A stretch of DNA of 64,000 nt, taken from positions 1,860,001 to 1,924,000 of the forward strand of contig NC_005363.1 in assembly GCF_000196175.1 (NCBI RefSeq), in the 5' to 3' direction. The stretch comes from Bdellovibrio bacteriovorus HD100 (lineage in GTDB: Bacteria > Bdellovibrionota > Bdellovibrionia > Bdellovibrionales > Bdellovibrionaceae). Below, piece by piece: positions 39,122 through 47,586 of this stretch (positions are counted from its first letter, which is position 1; each line of letters starts with the position of its first letter). A program made the position numbers and the translations under genes. The notes under the pieces are model-generated. The model was given only the letters and a program-made list of their open reading frames with translations, made no database searches and was not told where the DNA came from.

Positions 39122-39835
39122 ATGTCTTTGTTTGCGCACGTAACAGCTTTGCTGATTTTGACGTCGGTGGCATCGGCCAAGCCGATAGTTCTGGCGACGT
39201 TCGCCATTCCCTTGATGGTGGAAAGTCCCGAGCGCGGACTTTTTGTGAATCTCACCCGCGAAATCGCGAAACGCAATTCCCGACAGATTGAGATCCTGGT
39301 TTATCCCACGGGGAAAACCCTTTTGGCATTTTCCAACAATAAAGTCGACGGTTTCTTCCCGGCTCTGGATGTGTATGTCCCCCAGGCCACGGCCAAATCC
39401 ACCGCTTTCTATCGTAAGGTGGACTATGTCTTTTACAAAAAGGACAAACCCCTGAGAAGCCTCAAAGATCTTGAAGGCAAAAAGGTCGGTCTGACCTTCC
39501 GCTATCCTTATGTCAGAGAGCTCATCGGCAATAAAAAGATCCGCTTTGAAATGGCGGCCGACGATGTGCTGAATATGAAAAAGTTGGGCAAGGGACTGAT
39601 TGATGCTTTTGTCGTGGAAGAGCGTTCAGGGTTGAAGGCACTGCAACTCAGCGGACAGAAGCAGATTGAGTTTGATCGAAACCAGCCTCTGTCAGAGCAG
39701 GTCGTGTACTATGCGTTTCAGGACAACGAAGACGGCAAACGTCTTGCCGATATTTTTTCTAGGACCATTGAGTCCATGAAAAAAGACGGCAGCCTCGATC
39801 GGGTCCTGACTGAGACCGCCACCACCCCACCTTAG
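39122..39835 (+). CDS. Periplasmic solute-binding protein (family 3 type)
   Basis: 237 residues with signal peptide MSLFAHVTALLILTSVASA. Typical SBP_bac_3 features: ANREIAKRN-type N-lobe start, DGFFPALDVY, SLKDLEGKKVGLTFRYPY and LSEQVVYYAFQ. Probably binds an amino acid or similar small molecule; could also be a sensor rather than a transport component since no permease adjoins. Its stop touches the convergent C45 gene stop. Confidence 0.78.
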   Translation: MSLFAHVTALLILTSVASAKPIVLATFAIPLMVESPERGLFVNLTREIAKRNSRQIEILVYPTGKTLLAFSNNKVDGFFPALDVYVPQATAKSTAFYRKVDYVFYKKDKPLRSLKDLEGKKVGLTFRYPYVRELIGNKKIRFEMAADDVLNMKKLGKGLIDAFVVEERSGLKALQLSGQKQIEFDRNQPLSEQVVYYAFQDNEDGKRLADIFSRTIESMKKDGSLDRVLTETATTPP

Positions 39836-41818
39836 CTATTCCACAGTTCCCAGACGGATCTCGGCATCAAGGACAATGTACAATTGTGCCTCTTCGCCCA
39901 AACTCCACTGCAAATCATAGAGTTCACTTTGGCGAGGGTATTTGGAAATCAAACCTTGTAACAATCCTTGCGCTTCCTGACGGAAAGCTCCTTGGGCAGC
40001 CCGGGATTGTTTTGCCTGAGGCTTCAGGGTTTCCGCGCGGAATCTCCACAGATCCAGCTGGAAGTTTTCATAGTCATGAAGACCTGAACCCAAACGCGCA
40101 GAGATCGTATTCAGACGCTCTTGTGCTTCCGTCAGATCGGTGTAGGCGATATCGCGCTGACCGCTCATGATGTTCTTCGCCGCGCGCAGAACCTTGATCC
40201 GGGCCCACATGAATTCATACGGGAATTCAAACACGCCATCTTGAGCGGCTGTGGCCGAAGCAGTTTCAAGCAACGCCAGGGTGCGATCCAGACCTGCGAT
40301 AGAGCTGTGATCCTGTTCATTGGCGAGATAAGCCTGAATATAGTACTTCATGGAGTCATACCAGGCAGGCTTCGTTGGGTCTTCCCACGCTTTGGTGGTT
40401 CCCAGAATCTCGACCGGAGCCTTTTGTCCTGGACCCAGCAGGCGGAAGCCCACAAAGTGAGAACGGTTGGTCGGGTAAGTTTCAGCCACACTCATCCACC
40501 ATTGCATGCGACCTGGTTGCATCACGTGCGTCGCTGCTGTGTACAGTTTTGTGGTGGTGCGACCAAAGGATCTGGCGCCCACCAGCTCGTCGGTGTGACC
40601 ACTTAAACGATTGATCACCCATTGGGCATCAATTTTTCCGAAATCTTCATTCAGTGTGCGTTCGACATGGGCCAGACGCGCACGGGTTTCCAGGGTTTTA
40701 TTCAGGCTGTATTCATAGCCTTCCTGGCTGGTTTTGCCACCCAGGAAATGATTGCTCTGGCCCAGGAATTTGTTCTGGGCACGACGAGCCACCACCACGG
40801 TATCTCCACTCAACTCTATGGAAGCGGATTCGTCGGTTTTGGCGTCTGAGATAAAGAACGTCCACGCCCCAAAGCCCTTGCGGGTCTGGATCATGGCAAT
40901 AGCTTCATTCAGGTTGCGTGCTTTCAACAGAACGGAATGCAGCAGGTAAGGGGCGATGTCGGATTCACCACGATCATAGCGAATCTGGGTGCCCTCGGTT
41001 TGCAGCTCATGCAAGCTTACGGAAAGACCGTGGCTGTTGATGCCACTGATGCCGCCGGCATAGTGCAGGCCCGCAGAGCCCAGACCCACCGACGTGGTTC
41101 CGTTTTTCTGACGGTTGATCACGATGACCTGTTCAGGTTCATAGAAACCCAAAAGGCCTGTGTCGAAGTTGCGACCATGAAGAAGGGCTCCATCTCTGGA
41201 GCTGCTCGCAGATGCACTGATCCCTGTGCAGCCCATTTTAATGGATCTCAAACCCTGAGCCAGCAGCTTGAAGGGCTTCGCCAGAGTGTTCCCGATAAAA
41301 TAAGGTGCACAAGAGGCAAAAACCTTCAGGGCTCCTTTGCGGGGGCTTTCATCCATCTGTCTTTGCATGGAATCAGCAAAGATAGAGAATTCCACCATGT
41401 AATTGCTTTCTTCAAACGCGCCCCAAGACACCTGGCTTCCGGCGTCTTTTAATCCGCGGTGCAGATTCTTCAAGCCCGTTTTGAATTCATCAGAAACGCT
41501 GGCGCGATAGTTGTCGATCACACATTTTTTAATCAACAGAAGTTGGTCCTGGGATTTTTTGTCCAAAGCTGAAAACGCGCGTTCGGTTCTGACCTGAACA
41601 CCCTTCAAGACACCAGCCTCGATTTCTTTTTTCAGGAAATAGCCATGGAAATAGGCGGTCTCGGAAAAACCACCCTTCAGGTCCAGCACATGCACAGATT
41701 TAGAGGCTCCCGGAGCCTGACAGACAAAGTGTTTTTGACCTTGCAGTTCATTTTTAAGAACACAGTCCGCAAAAGCCGAACCGGGAAGTAAAAGAGCCAG
41801 AATAAGAAGACGCTTCAT
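39836..41818 (-). CDS. Secreted C45-family Ntn acyltransferase/amidohydrolase
   Basis: 660 residues with signal peptide MKRLLILALLLPGSAFA. The self-processing nucleophile is C197 in KMGCTGIS, the GCT motif of C45 (isopenicillin-N acyltransferase-like) enzymes, followed by SSSRDGALLHGRNFD with the conserved Arg/Asp. Autocleavage would give chains of about 180 and 464 residues. These enzymes form or hydrolyse amide bonds between acyl groups and amines. A C-terminal region of about 200 residues beyond the core is unusual. Its start overlaps lysE-like stop as ATGA. Confidence 0.85.
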   Translation of the reverse strand: MKRLLILALLLPGSAFADCVLKNELQGQKHFVCQAPGASKSVHVLDLKGGFSETAYFHGYFLKKEIEAGVLKGVQVRTERAFSALDKKSQDQLLLIKKCVIDNYRASVSDEFKTGLKNLHRGLKDAGSQVSWGAFEESNYMVEFSIFADSMQRQMDESPRKGALKVFASCAPYFIGNTLAKPFKLLAQGLRSIKMGCTGISASASSSRDGALLHGRNFDTGLLGFYEPEQVIVINRQKNGTTSVGLGSAGLHYAGGISGINSHGLSVSLHELQTEGTQIRYDRGESDIAPYLLHSVLLKARNLNEAIAMIQTRKGFGAWTFFISDAKTDESASIELSGDTVVVARRAQNKFLGQSNHFLGGKTSQEGYEYSLNKTLETRARLAHVERTLNEDFGKIDAQWVINRLSGHTDELVGARSFGRTTTKLYTAATHVMQPGRMQWWMSVAETYPTNRSHFVGFRLLGPGQKAPVEILGTTKAWEDPTKPAWYDSMKYYIQAYLANEQDHSSIAGLDRTLALLETASATAAQDGVFEFPYEFMWARIKVLRAAKNIMSGQRDIAYTDLTEAQERLNTISARLGSGLHDYENFQLDLWRFRAETLKPQAKQSRAAQGAFRQEAQGLLQGLISKYPRQSELYDLQWSLGEEAQLYIVLDAEIRLGTVE

Positions 41819-42381
41819 AGAATCCCCACAGAAAGGTAAATTGAAAAGCAGAAGAAACCGCAGGCAGCCACGATTTCGATTTTTCTTAAGAATTTTTTAA
41901 TAGGTCCGTGCAGTCTTTTTAGCCCCCACAAAAGAGCCAGGAAGCTGACTACGAAGGTCAGAAGATACACGACAACTCCCAGCCACAGGGACTGCGCCTC
42001 ACGCAAGTGAACGAACAAACCGGCATAGATCAGGACCAGATGGAAGTTGGAAAGTGTCAAAGCCAGACTCTTGGTGAATCCCTGATGGGGGATTTCAAGT
42101 GACGCTGGCTGCTCTTTGGAAAGCAGAACTTTCAAAGAGTAAGCTGACAGCACCAGGGCGGTCATTGCGGTCAGGGTGACCTTAAGCCATTCCTGGTGAA
42201 ACAACGGGCTTTTTAGCAGGGCCATTGCCAGAAGGATGTAGGCCACATCCCCCAGTAAAAAGCCTGCAATCGAGGACCAGGGCCAGGTGCGGCGGGACAC
42301 CAGGCTGCGAATGATACTGAAGCTTGCCGGCCCCAGCGCAAACGCAGATAAAAATCCCACCGAAATCATCCACAGAATCAT
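41815..42381 (-). CDS. LysE/RhtB family exporter
   Basis: 188 residues, six predicted membrane segments. The family start MISVGFLSAFALGPASFSII with the conserved GP is visible, as is a hydrophobic C-terminal segment (IVAACGFFCFSIYL). LysE-type proteins export amino acids and derivatives. Slightly short for the family. ATGA overlaps join it to the GH3 gene upstream and the C45 gene downstream, so the three are one translational unit. Confidence 0.87.
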   Translation of the reverse strand: MILWMISVGFLSAFALGPASFSIIRSLVSRRTWPWSSIAGFLLGDVAYILLAMALLKSPLFHQEWLKVTLTAMTALVLSAYSLKVLLSKEQPASLEIPHQGFTKSLALTLSNFHLVLIYAGLFVHLREAQSLWLGVVVYLLTFVVSFLALLWGLKRLHGPIKKFLRKIEIVAACGFFCFSIYLSVGIL

Positions 42382-43898
42382 TGGGCAAGTCCTGTCTGTT
42401 CCAGATTGGTGCGGATGAAGTTCAGATATTCTTCCGCGGTCTCGAATGTGGTTTTCATTTTGAACTGACCGCGGCTGCGGTTTTTTTCAAAATACGCCTG
42501 CAGATAGTCTGCATTCATGATCTGCACTTGTGCTGGGCCCAAAACACCCACTTCGCGGCAGTCATGGTAGTCGCCATTAAGCTTTTGCATCTGTTGATCC
42601 AAAGTGGCTGCCAAAGATTCCACGTTAATGTTCGCTTTTTCTGGAACGAACAGTGTCCAAAGATAAGCCGCTTTGCCGTTATTCAGAACCGGAGACAGGA
42701 AGAAGTGGCGCATATCCACATTAAGAGAGTTTTTGGTATTCAAATAACAATCCAGAATTTCATCATCGCTGACTTTCTCTGCGGCCAGGTTCATGCCAGT
42801 GGACTTGCGGCCGACAAACTCAAACACCAGATCGCCGTTGTTCAGGTCAAAGCTAACAACATCTTTCATGCAATAGTGAATCATTCCATTCGGAGTGCCG
42901 ACGTTCAGATAGTAAGCCACGCCCATTTCGATCTGGTGCAGGCCCACGTTCTTTTTTGGTCCATTGACCGGAGTGAAAGAATAAATCAGGTCCGGGTTCA
43001 GGAAATAGCGCTGACGGCCGTTTTCATACTTTTCGTATGGCAAACCGATAGCAGCCTCTGTTGCCGCATATACGCCGTAATAGTTCAGTTCATGGCCCAC
43101 CAGACGGTCAATACGCTCCTGGTATTGTTTGATCGGGGTGGCTGCATAAACGAAGACTTTCAGGTTCGGCCAGATTTCATTGATGTGAGTCTTGCCGGTT
43201 TTTTGCAAAACCGCCTCAAAGATAGAGATGATATAAGTAGGGATTCCGCTCACCACTTGAATGTCCTGCTGGATGGATTCGTTAACCAGCATTTCAATCT
43301 TTTTGTCCCAGTTGGAAATAGCCAGCACCTCCCGGCAAGGGAAGGTGTTTTTGGCCAAAGCCTTTGGAACACGGGTGGACAGAATCCCGGAAATGTAACC
43401 AAATTTAAAACCATTTTGCGAATACAGGTACGGATCAGATCCGAATGTCAGGCGTCCTGCTTGAAGCAGATTGATGTTGGGCTCCAGAGTCGACAACTTG
43501 CTGGCGATACGCTTCTGGGATTTGATGAACATGCGGATCATGCGTTCATTATAAGGTACTCGTTTGGAGTCCTTGCCAGAGGTGCCGGAAGAAAGACCGA
43601 AATAGTCCGCTTTGTCTTTAAATAGAATGTCTTTATGACCTGCGGCGATCATGTCCACATACGGCGCATATTCGTCGTAGCTCAACACGGGAACGTGGTT
43701 CACAAACTCTTCATAAGAGTGAATGTGGGACAGGCGCAGGTCCTTATAGATGCGGGTGCCGGTCATGGCGCGCTTCAGACTGGCAAAGTTCTTCTCTTGT
43801 TTAGAGAGCAGGTCTTGATGATTCACGGTCATTCTTTGACCGTATGTTTTCAGGTATTTTTGACCCAGGGACTGGACAACATGATTCACTGCGAACAT
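42378..43898 (-). CDS. GH3-type acyl-acid amido synthetase (ANL superfamily)
   Basis: 506 residues, no signal peptide. GH3 enzymes adenylate a carboxylic acid, then join it to an amino acid through an amide bond. Visible: the P-loop SSGTSGKDSK (103-112), the YGVYAATEAAIG motif with T280/E281, and the C-terminal hinge MKDVVSFDLNNGD (D346) with FVGRKSTGMN (R364) and AEK (K375). First described in plants for auxin and jasmonate conjugation; bacterial substrates are largely unknown. First gene of a three-gene operon; AAGGAGTTTTTT precedes the ATG. Confidence 0.87.
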   Translation of the reverse strand: MFAVNHVVQSLGQKYLKTYGQRMTVNHQDLLSKQEKNFASLKRAMTGTRIYKDLRLSHIHSYEEFVNHVPVLSYDEYAPYVDMIAAGHKDILFKDKADYFGLSSGTSGKDSKRVPYNERMIRMFIKSQKRIASKLSTLEPNINLLQAGRLTFGSDPYLYSQNGFKFGYISGILSTRVPKALAKNTFPCREVLAISNWDKKIEMLVNESIQQDIQVVSGIPTYIISIFEAVLQKTGKTHINEIWPNLKVFVYAATPIKQYQERIDRLVGHELNYYGVYAATEAAIGLPYEKYENGRQRYFLNPDLIYSFTPVNGPKKNVGLHQIEMGVAYYLNVGTPNGMIHYCMKDVVSFDLNNGDLVFEFVGRKSTGMNLAAEKVSDDEILDCYLNTKNSLNVDMRHFFLSPVLNNGKAAYLWTLFVPEKANINVESLAATLDQQMQKLNGDYHDCREVGVLGPAQVQIMNADYLQAYFEKNRSRGQFKMKTTFETAEEYLNFIRTNLEQTGLAQ

Positions 43899-43963
43899 AA
43901 AAAACTCCTTCGTTGGAATGGAGGCAATCTATTTCGATTTAGGGCCGTTGTCGCTTTAACGCG

Positions 43964-43990
43964 TTGACAGTAAATGAGGGTTTTTGTCGA
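43964..43990. promoter_or_regulatory. Operator-like repeat, copy 1 (TTGACA-N15-TGTCGA)
   Basis: Inverted-repeat site in the divergent GH3/TetR promoter region. It shares TTGACAG, ten bases, then TTTTTGTC with copy 2. The starts of the two copies are 42 bases apart, about four helical turns. Probably bound by the adjacent TetR protein. The TTGACA may double as a -35 hexamer. Confidence 0.6.
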
Positions 43991-44005
43991 ATTCGCCACC
44001 TTCCA

Positions 44006-44032
44006 TTGACAGAATTCGGGAGTTTTTGTCAA
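44006..44032. promoter_or_regulatory. Operator-like repeat, copy 2 (TTGACA-N15-TGTCAA)
   Basis: Perfect 6-bp inverted arms. It ends 10 bases before the tetR-like ATG at 44042, so binding would repress that gene as well. Confidence 0.6.
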
Positions 44033-44041
44033 AATTGCAGG

Positions 44042-44548
44042 ATGGCAACTCAATCGAAGGAAGAAATCTATTTTGCGGTCTGTAACGCTATCCTGAAGAT
44101 GGAAGTGGCCAAAGGCCATTTGCAATGGACCTTGTCTGATATCTCCAGGGAATCCAACGTCACCCGGTCCTTGATTTACTACTATTTCGGGAAAGAGAAG
44201 GACAAGGTTCTTGAAGAGGCCTATAAATTCGTCATCTCTCATATCTTCAATATGGAGCGCACCAAGACCGTCGGCATCCGAGAGCGCCTGCGCGACGTCC
44301 TGCGGGACGTGAAAAACATGCCGTACCTGTTCGTGCTTTATTATCTGGAGAAAAATGCCGGGACCCAGTTCGGCAAAATGATCAACGAGGCCGAGGCTTT
44401 GTTGATGAAAGCGATGAAAATCGAGTTCCCGACTTTAAGTGAAATCCAGATCCTGGAGATTTATTTAAAGGAGCTTGGAGCCATCGCGTTCCAGCTGCCG
44501 CCGGAACGGGTCGATGATCTGTTTGCTGATTACATCAAAAAGAATTAG
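44042..44548 (+). CDS. TetR family transcriptional regulator
   Basis: 168 residues from the ATG at 44042; the longer frame from 43964 would run through the operator-like repeats. The helix-turn-helix is TLSDISRESNVTRSLIYYYFG (about residues 31-51), with the typical YYYFGKEKDKVLEEAY. The C-terminal ligand domain is helical and unassigned. Divergent from the GH3 operon, so it is the likely local repressor, perhaps sensing the GH3 product or precursor. Little Shine-Dalgarno (GCAGG directly before ATG), so possibly weakly translated or leaderless. It ends overlapping the RND gene by 4 bases. Confidence 0.9.
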   Translation: MATQSKEEIYFAVCNAILKMEVAKGHLQWTLSDISRESNVTRSLIYYYFGKEKDKVLEEAYKFVISHIFNMERTKTVGIRERLRDVLRDVKNMPYLFVLYYLEKNAGTQFGKMINEAEALLMKAMKIEFPTLSEIQILEIYLKELGAIAFQLPPERVDDLFADYIKKN

Positions 44549-45318
44549 TCCTCTGCCAGCGCTTTCGGTGTAAAGCGCGCAGCCGTCAGGCCCTGGTCAA
44601 TCTTCACCTGGGACAGGACGATGACGGTGGCTCTTTTATTCTGCACATTCTTGATACTGATTTTGGAGGCGCGCATCTTGCCGCCTGCGACTTTTTTGTA
44701 TCCGGTAAAGTCCAGGGTTTTCAGAAGCTTTCCCTGTTTGTCGAAGCATTCCACCTTCACCGGCACATAGTCTGTGGCTGAAACATAGCTGATGATTTTG
44801 GAATAGGACGGGGAGGTTGTGTTTACATCTGACTCGACAATCAGGTATTTCTTTCCGCCAATCTCAGCTTCTTTTTTGATGACGTTTTGTGCGCCCTGAT
44901 CACGGTTGAAATCAAAGTCTTCGGTTGAAAGCTCTGAACCCAAAATGCCCCCCTGGCCTGACTCTCCGGTCAGGCGGCGAGTTTGTTTGGTGGAGGGAAG
45001 GTATATCCACTTGTCTTCCTGCTCCCCCTTTAAGGTGGCCAGCAGGGCGGTGCCCTTGAGGTCCTGGGGTTTTTGCATGCGCACCAAAAGATAATGTTCT
45101 TTTTTCTGCGGGCTGAAGCGCCAGATCTTCATTTCGCGGTCTTTGCTTGAGCCATCCGCTTCGATGATCTTCATCTTCACCAGAAACTGTTCATCCCGGG
45201 AGCGCAGACGCTGACTCATTTCCTCTCCCAGTTTTTCCGTAGTCAGAGGTTGGGCGTGTGTCGGGATCGGGGCCAGTGCCACAAATATTGTCAAAAGGAT
45301 CATTGCGGATGTTGCCAT
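44545..45318 (-). CDS. Possible internally initiated secreted LolA-like protein
   Basis: In frame inside the RND gene, an ATG at 45318 is preceded by AAGGAG at a 6-base spacing, a near-perfect ribosome site. The following residues (MATSAMILLTIFVALAPIP, then THAQP) form a good signal peptide with an AxA-like cleavage site. Initiation here would make a free 257-residue periplasmic protein. Both the fusion and the short product may be made, or a stop codon may have been lost between two ancestral genes. Confidence 0.6.
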   Translation of the reverse strand: MATSAMILLTIFVALAPIPTHAQPLTTEKLGEEMSQRLRSRDEQFLVKMKIIEADGSSKDREMKIWRFSPQKKEHYLLVRMQKPQDLKGTALLATLKGEQEDKWIYLPSTKQTRRLTGESGQGGILGSELSTEDFDFNRDQGAQNVIKKEAEIGGKKYLIVESDVNTTSPSYSKIISYVSATDYVPVKVECFDKQGKLLKTLDFTGYKKVAGGKMRASKISIKNVQNKRATVIVLSQVKIDQGLTAARFTPKALAED

Positions 45319-47586
45319 GACTTTCTCCTTTTTCCACGGTACGGGAGCCAGCAACCAAGGGCAACTTTTCAACAGCGTTGGAAGAAGAATCAAATCCCCC
45401 ACCAGACCCGCGAGCATTGACAAGAGCATGTAAAAGCCAAAGATCCGGTTCATGGCAAAATACGAAGCCAGGAACACGGAGAAGCCGGCAAGCAGGGTCA
45501 AACTTGATATCAGACAAGGATTCCCTTCTCGCCACAGGGTCTTTTCGATTTCGAGTTCTTTGCTATTAGACTTTTTCTGCATATAACGAAGGCGTTCGAG
45601 CAGATACACTGTGTTGTTAAATGCCAATCCCAGGGCGATTGAAAAGATAATGGCAATACTGGGTTTGATGGGAGTTTCTGAGATCGCCAAAAACCCCAGC
45701 AGGGCCGCCGGCGGGACCAGATTGGGGATGCAGGCGACCAGAGCCCAGCGCACCGAGCGGAAGACAAAAACCAGCACCAGAGCAATCGCAATCATCGAGT
45801 GCCAGAAGCCAAAGATCAGTTCCTTGGAAAGCTCATTGTTCAGATGATGAATCGTCGAACCCATGCCGGACACTTCGACAGACATTTGCGGGAAGGCGTT
45901 GGTGGCCTTTTCGCGGATTCGCTCCACTACCTGGCTCAGTTGATTCGAGGGCAGATCAAAGGTGCGCACAGAAATACGGGTATTGGCCGAATCGGTGGTC
46001 AAAAAGTTTTTCAAGGGGCTGGCACTGCTTAAGGAATAAAGGAAGAAAATCTCTGCTGTCGAAGAGCGGCTGGCGGGCAGTCTGGAGTGGTGCAAATTGG
46101 CCGCCGCCACCAGGTCCGGCAGACCCACGACGCTTCCCACACCCTCAATCTCTCGGAGTTCCACTAAAAGCTGATCCAGCCTTGCCATCAGTTGTGGGTC
46201 GTTCCAGGAATCGGAAGGCCCTTTGACTTCAACATCCACTGGAATCATCCCACCCAGTTCGCGGTCGATGGTTTCAGTCGACAGGCGCACCTGATGATTG
46301 GCGGGAAGGTCGTCAAACAAACGCGCTGACCAGGACAGTCCTTGCCCTTTGATAGCCAGAGCAGAGCAGACCAGGACAATCAGGAAAGCCCATATGCCGG
46401 AACGACGGAATAAATACAGTCCCCAGCGCGCTTTGGCCCAGGCCCAGTCGCGGGCTTTGGGTCCCTGCATGAAATAGAGCATGGGGAACAGCATCAGCGT
46501 GGTGACCAGCCAGCCGATCACGATGGCAATTGCCGCCGTGACACCATAGTCGCGAATCAGAGGGACCTTGGTCATCAGCAGACTTAAAAAACCGATCATG
46601 GTGGTGGTCGAGGCAAAGAAATTGGGTCCCAACAGGACTTTGAAGGTGTAAATCACACGTTCCTGGTGAGTCAGGTGGGGCTGGTTCTTTTGTTCTTCGG
46701 CGTACCTTAATAAAGTATGAATGATCAGTGAGACCACATCCACCGTGGTCAAAATTGGAATCGTGCTGGAAAGAACAGAAAACGGAAAGCCAGCCAGAGC
46801 CATCACCGCAAGAACCACAATGTTCGCACAAAGAATAATGACAAAGGAGATAATCAGTGGGGACCAGTTGGCAAAGATCAGCCCCAGCACCAGAAAGCAG
46901 GCGATGAATCCCAAAACCACAAAGTTGCGTATCTCAGTCTGTAGCAGGACGCCGACATCCGTCTGTACGGCGGGGGTGCCGCCGATTTCAATGTGCGCAA
47001 ATGGCACAGCTGCTGTGGCGGTGACTTCCAGGTTCTGGCGCAAATGCAGAAGGTCTTTGGTGTTCAGGGCTTTGATGTTTACAATGACCGACGCCGTGCG
47101 GGCATCCTGTGATATCAACGTTGGAGAGATCAGAGGGTTTGCCAGCGTCTCACGACGCCAGTTTTTTTCCGGAAGATTTTGCAGCAGGGGGCCGACGCTC
47201 AGGCCGTCACTGTTATTGACGGCGCCTTGGACGGTGGCCAGGCTCAGAGTGTTTTTCACCCCCGGAAAGTTGGCAAGAAGTTCTGTGAGTCTTTTCAGAT
47301 TTTCAATTTTGTCTTTGGCGAACCAGTTTTCGCCCGGGTCTTTGATTTTGGCGGTCACGATGAAGGGTTGGGCCTCGGACAGCTGAAAGACCTGTTTGGT
47401 GTGTTCATCTCTTTGCAGAAGTGGATTATCCGTTGGAAGAAACTGCTTCAAACTGTACTGCGTTTGTAAACCGGGAAGCGCGAACAGACTAAGGATGGTG
47501 GTGAAAAAAACAAAAAGAAGAGTAGAAATGCAGAGTGTTTTGACGGAAACTTTTGAAAATAATTTGGCGATTGTCGTATTTATCAT
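44545..47586 (-). CDS. RND/MMPL transporter fused in frame to a LolA-like domain
   Basis: 1013 residues. Residues 1-755 are an MMPL-type RND protein: N-terminal TM, a periplasmic loop, a TM bundle (about 215-370), a second TM (about 395), second periplasmic domain and TM bundle (about 595-740). Residues 757-1013 are a periplasmic lipoprotein-sorting LolA-like domain (WRFSPQKKEHYLLVRMQKP, DKWIYLPSTKQTRRL, GSELSTEDFDFNRD). A thirteenth TM or signal sequence links them, which would place the domain in the periplasm. Elsewhere these are separate neighbouring genes with a DUF1302 barrel, as the barrel here. Confidence 0.88.
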   Translation of the reverse strand: MINTTIAKLFSKVSVKTLCISTLLFVFFTTILSLFALPGLQTQYSLKQFLPTDNPLLQRDEHTKQVFQLSEAQPFIVTAKIKDPGENWFAKDKIENLKRLTELLANFPGVKNTLSLATVQGAVNNSDGLSVGPLLQNLPEKNWRRETLANPLISPTLISQDARTASVIVNIKALNTKDLLHLRQNLEVTATAAVPFAHIEIGGTPAVQTDVGVLLQTEIRNFVVLGFIACFLVLGLIFANWSPLIISFVIILCANIVVLAVMALAGFPFSVLSSTIPILTTVDVVSLIIHTLLRYAEEQKNQPHLTHQERVIYTFKVLLGPNFFASTTTMIGFLSLLMTKVPLIRDYGVTAAIAIVIGWLVTTLMLFPMLYFMQGPKARDWAWAKARWGLYLFRRSGIWAFLIVLVCSALAIKGQGLSWSARLFDDLPANHQVRLSTETIDRELGGMIPVDVEVKGPSDSWNDPQLMARLDQLLVELREIEGVGSVVGLPDLVAAANLHHSRLPASRSSTAEIFFLYSLSSASPLKNFLTTDSANTRISVRTFDLPSNQLSQVVERIREKATNAFPQMSVEVSGMGSTIHHLNNELSKELIFGFWHSMIAIALVLVFVFRSVRWALVACIPNLVPPAALLGFLAISETPIKPSIAIIFSIALGLAFNNTVYLLERLRYMQKKSNSKELEIEKTLWREGNPCLISSLTLLAGFSVFLASYFAMNRIFGFYMLLSMLAGLVGDLILLPTLLKSCPWLLAPVPWKKEKVMATSAMILLTIFVALAPIPTHAQPLTTEKLGEEMSQRLRSRDEQFLVKMKIIEADGSSKDREMKIWRFSPQKKEHYLLVRMQKPQDLKGTALLATLKGEQEDKWIYLPSTKQTRRLTGESGQGGILGSELSTEDFDFNRDQGAQNVIKKEAEIGGKKYLIVESDVNTTSPSYSKIISYVSATDYVPVKVECFDKQGKLLKTLDFTGYKKVAGGKMRASKISIKNVQNKRATVIVLSQVKIDQGLTAARFTPKALAED

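Follow-up and report, generated by a model that had tools for sequence, protein, structure and literature searches.

Plant GH3 enzymes use aromatic and jasmonate acids. For bacterial GH3 enzymes more than 7,500 BLAST hits were reported, with OlsH as the characterized member among them (PMC12493201). OlsH, described in 2025, forms N-acyl ornithine from a fatty acid and ornithine with ATP and Mg (PMC12493201). Carriers of the LysE type export amino acids and their analogues and relieve amino acid overload (PMC8498466). The precursors of pyoverdine are acylated, exported and deacylated by the periplasmic N-terminal nucleophile (Ntn) hydrolase PvdQ (PMC6206403). Here, a locus of Bdellovibrio bacteriovorus HD100 was analyzed in which genes for a GH3 protein, a LysE-type exporter and a secreted C45 Ntn hydrolase form an operon beside a divergent tetR gene. 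It lies in a window of 64,000 nucleotides (positions 1,860,001 to 1,924,000 of contig NC_005363.1), and the coordinates given below are those of the window. The GH3-LysE-C45-TetR gene set was previously undescribed; a literature search retrieved no text describing it.

The locus comprises the following features:

42378-43898, minus strand: GH3-family acyl-acid amido synthetase, predicted cytoplasmic (506 aa; Pfam, ATP motifs, clade)
41815-42381, minus strand: LysE/RhtB-type inner-membrane exporter (188 aa; Pfam, six predicted transmembrane segments (TM), C terminus predicted outside)
39836-41818, minus strand: secreted C45 Ntn hydrolase/acyltransferase (660 aa; signal peptide, predicted self-cleavage between G196 and C197)
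44042-44548, plus strand: TetR-family regulator, divergent from the operon (168 aa; TetR_N; probably leaderless)
43964-43990, no strand: candidate operator O1, TTGACAGTAAATGAGGGTTTTTGTCGA, a 27-bp dyad on the GH3 side
44006-44032, no strand: candidate operator O2, TTGACAGAATTCGGGAGTTTTTGTCAA, a 27-bp dyad; its left arm coincides with the −35 hexamer of a promoter-like site

The GH3/LysE and LysE/C45 junctions are 4-bp ATGA overlaps (tcat on the plus strand, 42378-42381 and 41815-41818). An earlier note, made from the window sequence, had described these overlaps, the divergent tetR gene and two tandem operator-like repeats, all of which were found again.

Gene order, co-occurrence and operators

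The four genes very probably act together as one functional unit, and the link between them appears about as firm as sequence data allow. Co-location in other genomes, which had been set beforehand as a check, was found together with exact co-occurrence, operators kept after dispersal of the genes, and a LysE-C45 fusion. Bdellovibrio species and one more genus of the family have the genes in the order TetR-GH3-LysE-C45, between different flanking genes (L019, L027). In families f9 and f12 GH3-LysE-C45 is kept, with tetR divergent or downstream; two genomes had no tetR close to these three genes. In f28/f26, C45 adjoins GH3 or lies near it.

Profile searches of 369 Bdellovibrionota genomes identified the GH3 clade (threshold at least 299 bits, next best 192) and the C45 clade (threshold at least 690 bits, next best 413) in the same 27 genomes, in two of which the genes are unlinked. 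In a check of 20 genomes within the family, C45 was present in all 12 GH3 carriers and in none of the other 8. Across the 27 species, GH3 and C45 diverge in parallel (r=0.98 for their pairwise distances), as would also be expected from shared descent alone. Second-tier C45 proteins (300-413 bits; L128-L134 in G305, G344, G133, G218, G348 and G131) were rejected as members of the unit, since neither GH3 nor LysE adjoins them.

For one genome (G031, UBA4095), the genes were found spread over three contigs carrying GH3/TetR, LysE and C45, respectively. A perfect dyad ends 61 bp before the start codon of its LysE gene, and two one-mismatch dyads, 41 bp apart, lie upstream of its C45 gene. Another genome (G360) transcribes C45 apart from GH3 and holds a perfect dyad between C45 and tetR. 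In the Bdellovibrionales genome GWA1_52_35 (G336), LysE and C45 constitute a single frame of 811 aa. Its N-terminal 185 residues match the LysE profile with E=1.8e-15, compared to 0.97 for the best of 500 shuffles, and the LysE part aligned over 172 columns with a probability of 97% (hhalign). Since the C terminus of LysE is predicted outside, the fused C45 domain is predicted to be outside as well.

The gap between tetR and GH3 contains O1 and O2 as dyads of the form TTGACA-N15-TGTCRA, whose starts are 42 bp apart. The exact dyad occurs in the complete genome of 3,782,950 bp as O1 and O2 only. An operator within two mismatches precedes GH3 in 27 of 27 loci, mostly in two copies; shuffled sequence is expected to yield about 0.02 per locus. 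One copy falls at the GH3 start used for L079 and L082, where the real start is probably further downstream. The exact dyad had a single extra match in ten searched genomes, which is the relocated LysE gene of G031, and it was absent from the five GH3-less Bdellovibrio genomes searched. The claim that the operon is controlled by its own TetR is strongly supported by these operator data as far as a dedicated regulator is concerned, and binding itself is predicted from the conserved palindromes in the divergent promoter and the TetR_N domain.

A scan of the region detected one promoter-like site, TTGACA-18-CAAAAT (44006-44035, plus strand), which overlaps O2. Because the left arm of O2 is the −35 hexamer of this site, autoregulation of tetR is suggested. 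The tetR mRNA starting from it would be nearly leaderless and self-repressing. A longer, TTG-started open reading frame for tetR from 43964 is an unlikely gene, as conservation starts at the ATG at 44042.

Isolated additional perfect dyads in G062, G064, G105, G106, G256, G361 and G364 were not accepted as further regulon members, since their number is about that of a reversed-pattern control and the neighboring genes have no common theme. One of them lies directly 5′ of a gene for a PlsC-like acyltransferase (L153:1501-2487, G361:C17) in a genome without LysE near GH3. It may be due to chance, and the gene was rejected as a regulon member because no operator-linked relative was found elsewhere. 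An exact TTGACA-N15-TGTCAA is also located on a Bernardetia plasmid (L140:5552-5578), directly 3′ of an unrelated GH3 gene and between convergent genes, probably by chance.

The genes flanking the unit, a solute-binding protein gene (39122-39835) and the gene at 44545-47586, were rejected as members, since several loci retain the four genes but lack these neighbors. The latter, on the minus strand, encodes a protein of 1013 aa with an MMPL/HAE3-type transporter and a LolA-like domain (PF17131) in a single frame. It is convergent with tetR (4-bp overlap) and adjoins it in most, not all, Bdellovibrio.

The encoded proteins

The family names given in the earlier note are supported by Pfam/NCBIfam for all four proteins, for LysE and TetR just above the cut-off. 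The GH3 protein matches PF03321 with 94.1 bits (gathering score 23.6; E=1.2e-26) and GH3_C with E=7.9e-7. Its ATP motifs are intact (S103SGTSGKDSK112, YAATE281 and G338MIHYCMKD346) and largely invariant among relatives. The first of these, SSGTSGKDSK, had already been noticed and was confirmed at residues 103-112. S104 and K480, the latter in the C-terminal catalytic lysine region, are invariant among relatives, E281, D346 and R364 largely so, and S104 aligns with the essential S115 of OlsH.

The OlsH profile NF052613 was matched over the full length with 184.4 bits (3e-54), and the GH3 proteins of six sister loci reached 104-159 bits. The equivalog cut-off of 620 bits was missed and the GH3 proteins of the operon form a clade separate from OlsH in the tree (support 99/98), by which an assignment as OlsH proper was ruled out. 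As a distant OlsH relative in a clade of its own, the enzyme is likely to form an acyl-amide bond. Other GH3 proteins of the phylum are nearer to OlsH, namely those at L085:4805-8681 (G091, 346 bits) and L086:7299-10692 (G239, 266 bits). One of these genes overlaps a gene for an MMPL exporter and the other a KASIII/haem-oxygenase-like gene, and both loci represent possible further GH3 pathways.

The LysE protein scored 27.5 bits against PF01810 (gathering score 25.6). Lysine and arginine residues are located in the odd loops between its predicted TM, a GP motif was found in TM1 and an acidic residue in TM2. The regulator matched TetR_N with 25.0 bits at a cut-off of 24.

The C45 protein matches AAT/C45 (PF03417) with E=1.4e-8 and NF040521 with 101.5 bits (cut-off 85). 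A signal peptide, which had been proposed before, was found at residues 1-17 (MKRLLILALLLPGSAFA, followed by DC). The positions G196-C197, R216, N217, D219, N261, N356 and R420 are invariant; their catalytic roles are presumed by analogy. The invariant cysteines 19, 33, 99 and 170 could form periplasmic disulphides. Self-cleavage is predicted at the invariant Gly-Cys processing site, and the earlier assignment of C197 as nucleophile is supported, as it follows G196 and sits at the nucleophile position of structural relatives in the model.

This model (pLDDT 84.9, pTM 0.86) covers the whole of isopenicillin-N acyltransferase (IAT; 2x1e) with Z 34.6 over 329 residues at 2.6 Å. The next matches were N-acylethanolamine acid amidase (NAAA; 6dxw) with Z 28.3 and acid ceramidase (5u81) with Z 27.0, and C197 is placed at their nucleophile. 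Enzymes of this fold, such as these three, hydrolyze N-acyl bonds or transfer the acyl group. The fold also resembles bile salt hydrolase and acyl-homoserine lactone (AHL) acylase. A variable helical domain is added at the C terminus (about 484-651). The C-terminal end T-[VA]-E (39836-39847) was found to be invariant in all aligned relatives across the phylum.

Proposed pathway and competing explanations

A TetR-controlled N-acyl-amide pathway from the cytoplasm to the periplasm is the best explanation for the locus, with a rough probability of 0.5. The GH3 enzyme would use ATP to adenylate an acyl acid, most likely a fatty acid, and couple it to an amino acid or another small amine through the amino group of the latter. 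The product or its amine moiety would cross the inner membrane through the LysE-type carrier, and the signal-peptide-bearing, self-cleaving C45 enzyme would hydrolyze the amide in the periplasm or hand its acyl group on to a different acceptor. By binding O1 and O2, TetR would control both directions, in some species together with unlinked LysE and C45 genes. The order of these steps, make-export-cleave or make-export-transfer, is inferred from the compartments of the enzymes and the gene order, and is given an even chance. The make-export-cleave/remodel pathway proposed earlier fits the anatomy of the operon, with its cytoplasmic ligase, an exporter whose C terminus is predicted outside and a secreted enzyme of the IAT/NAAA/ceramidase fold; its individual steps were deduced.

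Several observations weigh against this pathway. Making and then cleaving the same amide could be futile, so that C45 might instead be an acyl-transferring enzyme or use another substrate. The score of 184 bits compared to the 620 bits required for OlsH indicates that the acyl and amine substrates may differ. Conservation of LysE is weak (about 20-28% between families), and in G361 no LysE was found close to GH3/C45, so that it may act differently there. Finally, the unit was found in about 7% of the phylum genomes, and its 27 of 27 co-occurrences are not 27 independent events.

As the closest characterized relative of the GH3 protein, OlsH, catalyzes the first step of ornithine lipid synthesis and the closest fold of C45 is that of an acyltransferase, the operon could instead serve aminolipid synthesis. 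A lyso-aminolipid made by GH3 would be exported, and C45 would complete or remodel an envelope lipid or acylate another envelope target. IAT swaps acyl groups, and the perfect operator of G361 just before the PlsC-like gene would also fit. This explanation is considered unlikely, since the operon holds no OlsI-like alpha/beta-hydrolase or other O-acyltransferase, the PlsC-like gene is without close relative in most other genomes and without operator link elsewhere, and the substrates known for LysE-type carriers are amino acids rather than lipids (LysE, ArgO; PMC8498466). The resemblance of C45 to NAAA, ceramidase, bile salt hydrolase and AHL acylase would suit a salvage or detoxification of prey amides. 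The hosts of the unit include predators that feed on other bacteria and digest them. C45 would cleave N-acyl compounds of the prey (ornithine lipids, AHLs or N-acyl amines), and GH3 and LysE would conjugate and export the excess fatty or amino acid, in line with the relief of amino acid overload by LysE exporters (PMC8498466). Releasing compounds outside and conjugating them anew inside at the expense of ATP is a roundabout route, however, and the LysE-C45 fusion suggests that C45 acts on a compound handled by LysE. Many relatives, including 10 of 24 Bdellovibrio genomes, also lack the unit, and this role was judged slightly more doubtful still.

A released signal or antibiotic-like acyl amide that C45 trims or activates, following the logic of a prodrug, has a precedent in pyoverdine and PvdQ (PMC6206403), and the dedicated local TetR would suit a product-sensing switch. 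No further gene is consistently linked in the 27 loci, so that the unit lacks an accompanying gene for a receptor, for resistance or for additional biosynthesis, and such a product appears improbable. That GH3, LysE and C45 share merely a promoter and act on unrelated substrates is very hard to reconcile with the co-occurrence of GH3 and C45 even when unlinked, the operators kept after dispersal, the LysE-C45 fusion and the r of 0.98, even though LysE and C45 are versatile families and the LysE sequence diverges fast.

Within the preferred N-acyl-amide pathway, a more specific version is put forward tentatively, as a possibility that is doubtful at present. The locus might run an ATP-driven acyl-amide cycle specific to the phylum and largely confined to predators and their relatives, in which GH3 tags a small amine or acid, LysE exports the conjugate, and C45, which one lineage has fused to the exporter, takes the acyl group off or transfers it as the conjugate arrives. 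We know of no description of acylation as a transport tag without an assembly line.

Distribution, significance and comparison with described systems

The unit was identified in 14 of 24 Bdellovibrio genomes and is thus accessory. A scan of GTDB r220 contigs by C45 alignment, using two peptide patterns of limited sensitivity, revealed 12 loci, all in Bdellovibrionota or in related 'Deltaproteobacteria' bins that other searches grouped with Bdellovibrionota. On the basis of this two-pattern scan of limited sensitivity, the unit is likely absent outside the phylum. Plasmid-borne GH3 proteins of Bacteroides, Bernardetia and Vibrio (23-25% identical) had no LysE or C45 within 4-5 kb.

Few bacterial GH3 enzymes have a known product, and here a GH3 enzyme comes together with a fixed exporter and a secreted acylase under a dedicated switch. 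As the unit is present in a laboratory predator, product, transport and processing can be addressed together. The known predation tools of Bdellovibrio are mostly proteins, and the pathway, if true, would add a small-molecule pathway to this organism. A coupling of exporter and acylase would further show how a cell pushes an acyl conjugate out and processes it on arrival.

The GH3 protein shares the fold, the ATP motifs and the invariant serine with OlsH, the lyso-ornithine lipid synthetase of Singulisphaera acidiphila (PMC12493201). OlsH is found beside OlsG and OlsI, whereas the GH3 protein of the operon is found beside LysE and C45. The exporter resembles the amino acid exporters LysE, ArgO and RhtB in its Pfam match, the six predicted TM, the GP motif in TM1 and the acidic residue in TM2; it differs in its weak score and, in one lineage, in its fusion to C45. 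With IAT, NAAA and acid ceramidase, C45 has in common the fold of the whole core, the Gly-Cys self-cleavage site and invariant residues of catalytic type. The identity to these enzymes is 14-15%, and C45 differs from them by the extra helical domain, the T-x-E tail, its secretion and its pairing with GH3.

By analogy, pyoverdine maturation with PvdE and PvdQ may be regarded as the nearest precedent in logic, since its cytoplasmic acylation, export and deacylation by a periplasmic self-cleaving Ntn hydrolase (PMC6206403) resemble the steps proposed for the operon. The signal peptide, the Ntn fold and the LysE-C45 fusion would be compatible with PvdQ-type periplasmic deacylation after export. 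A gene for a non-ribosomal peptide synthetase (NRPS), as in the PvdQ type, was found neither in the operon nor among its immediate neighbors. In pyoverdine maturation the acyl chain is added by an NRPS, export is carried out by PvdE and the Ntn acylase belongs to another family, whereas the operon described here pairs a stand-alone GH3 enzyme with a carrier of the LysE type and a C45 enzyme of the cysteine type.

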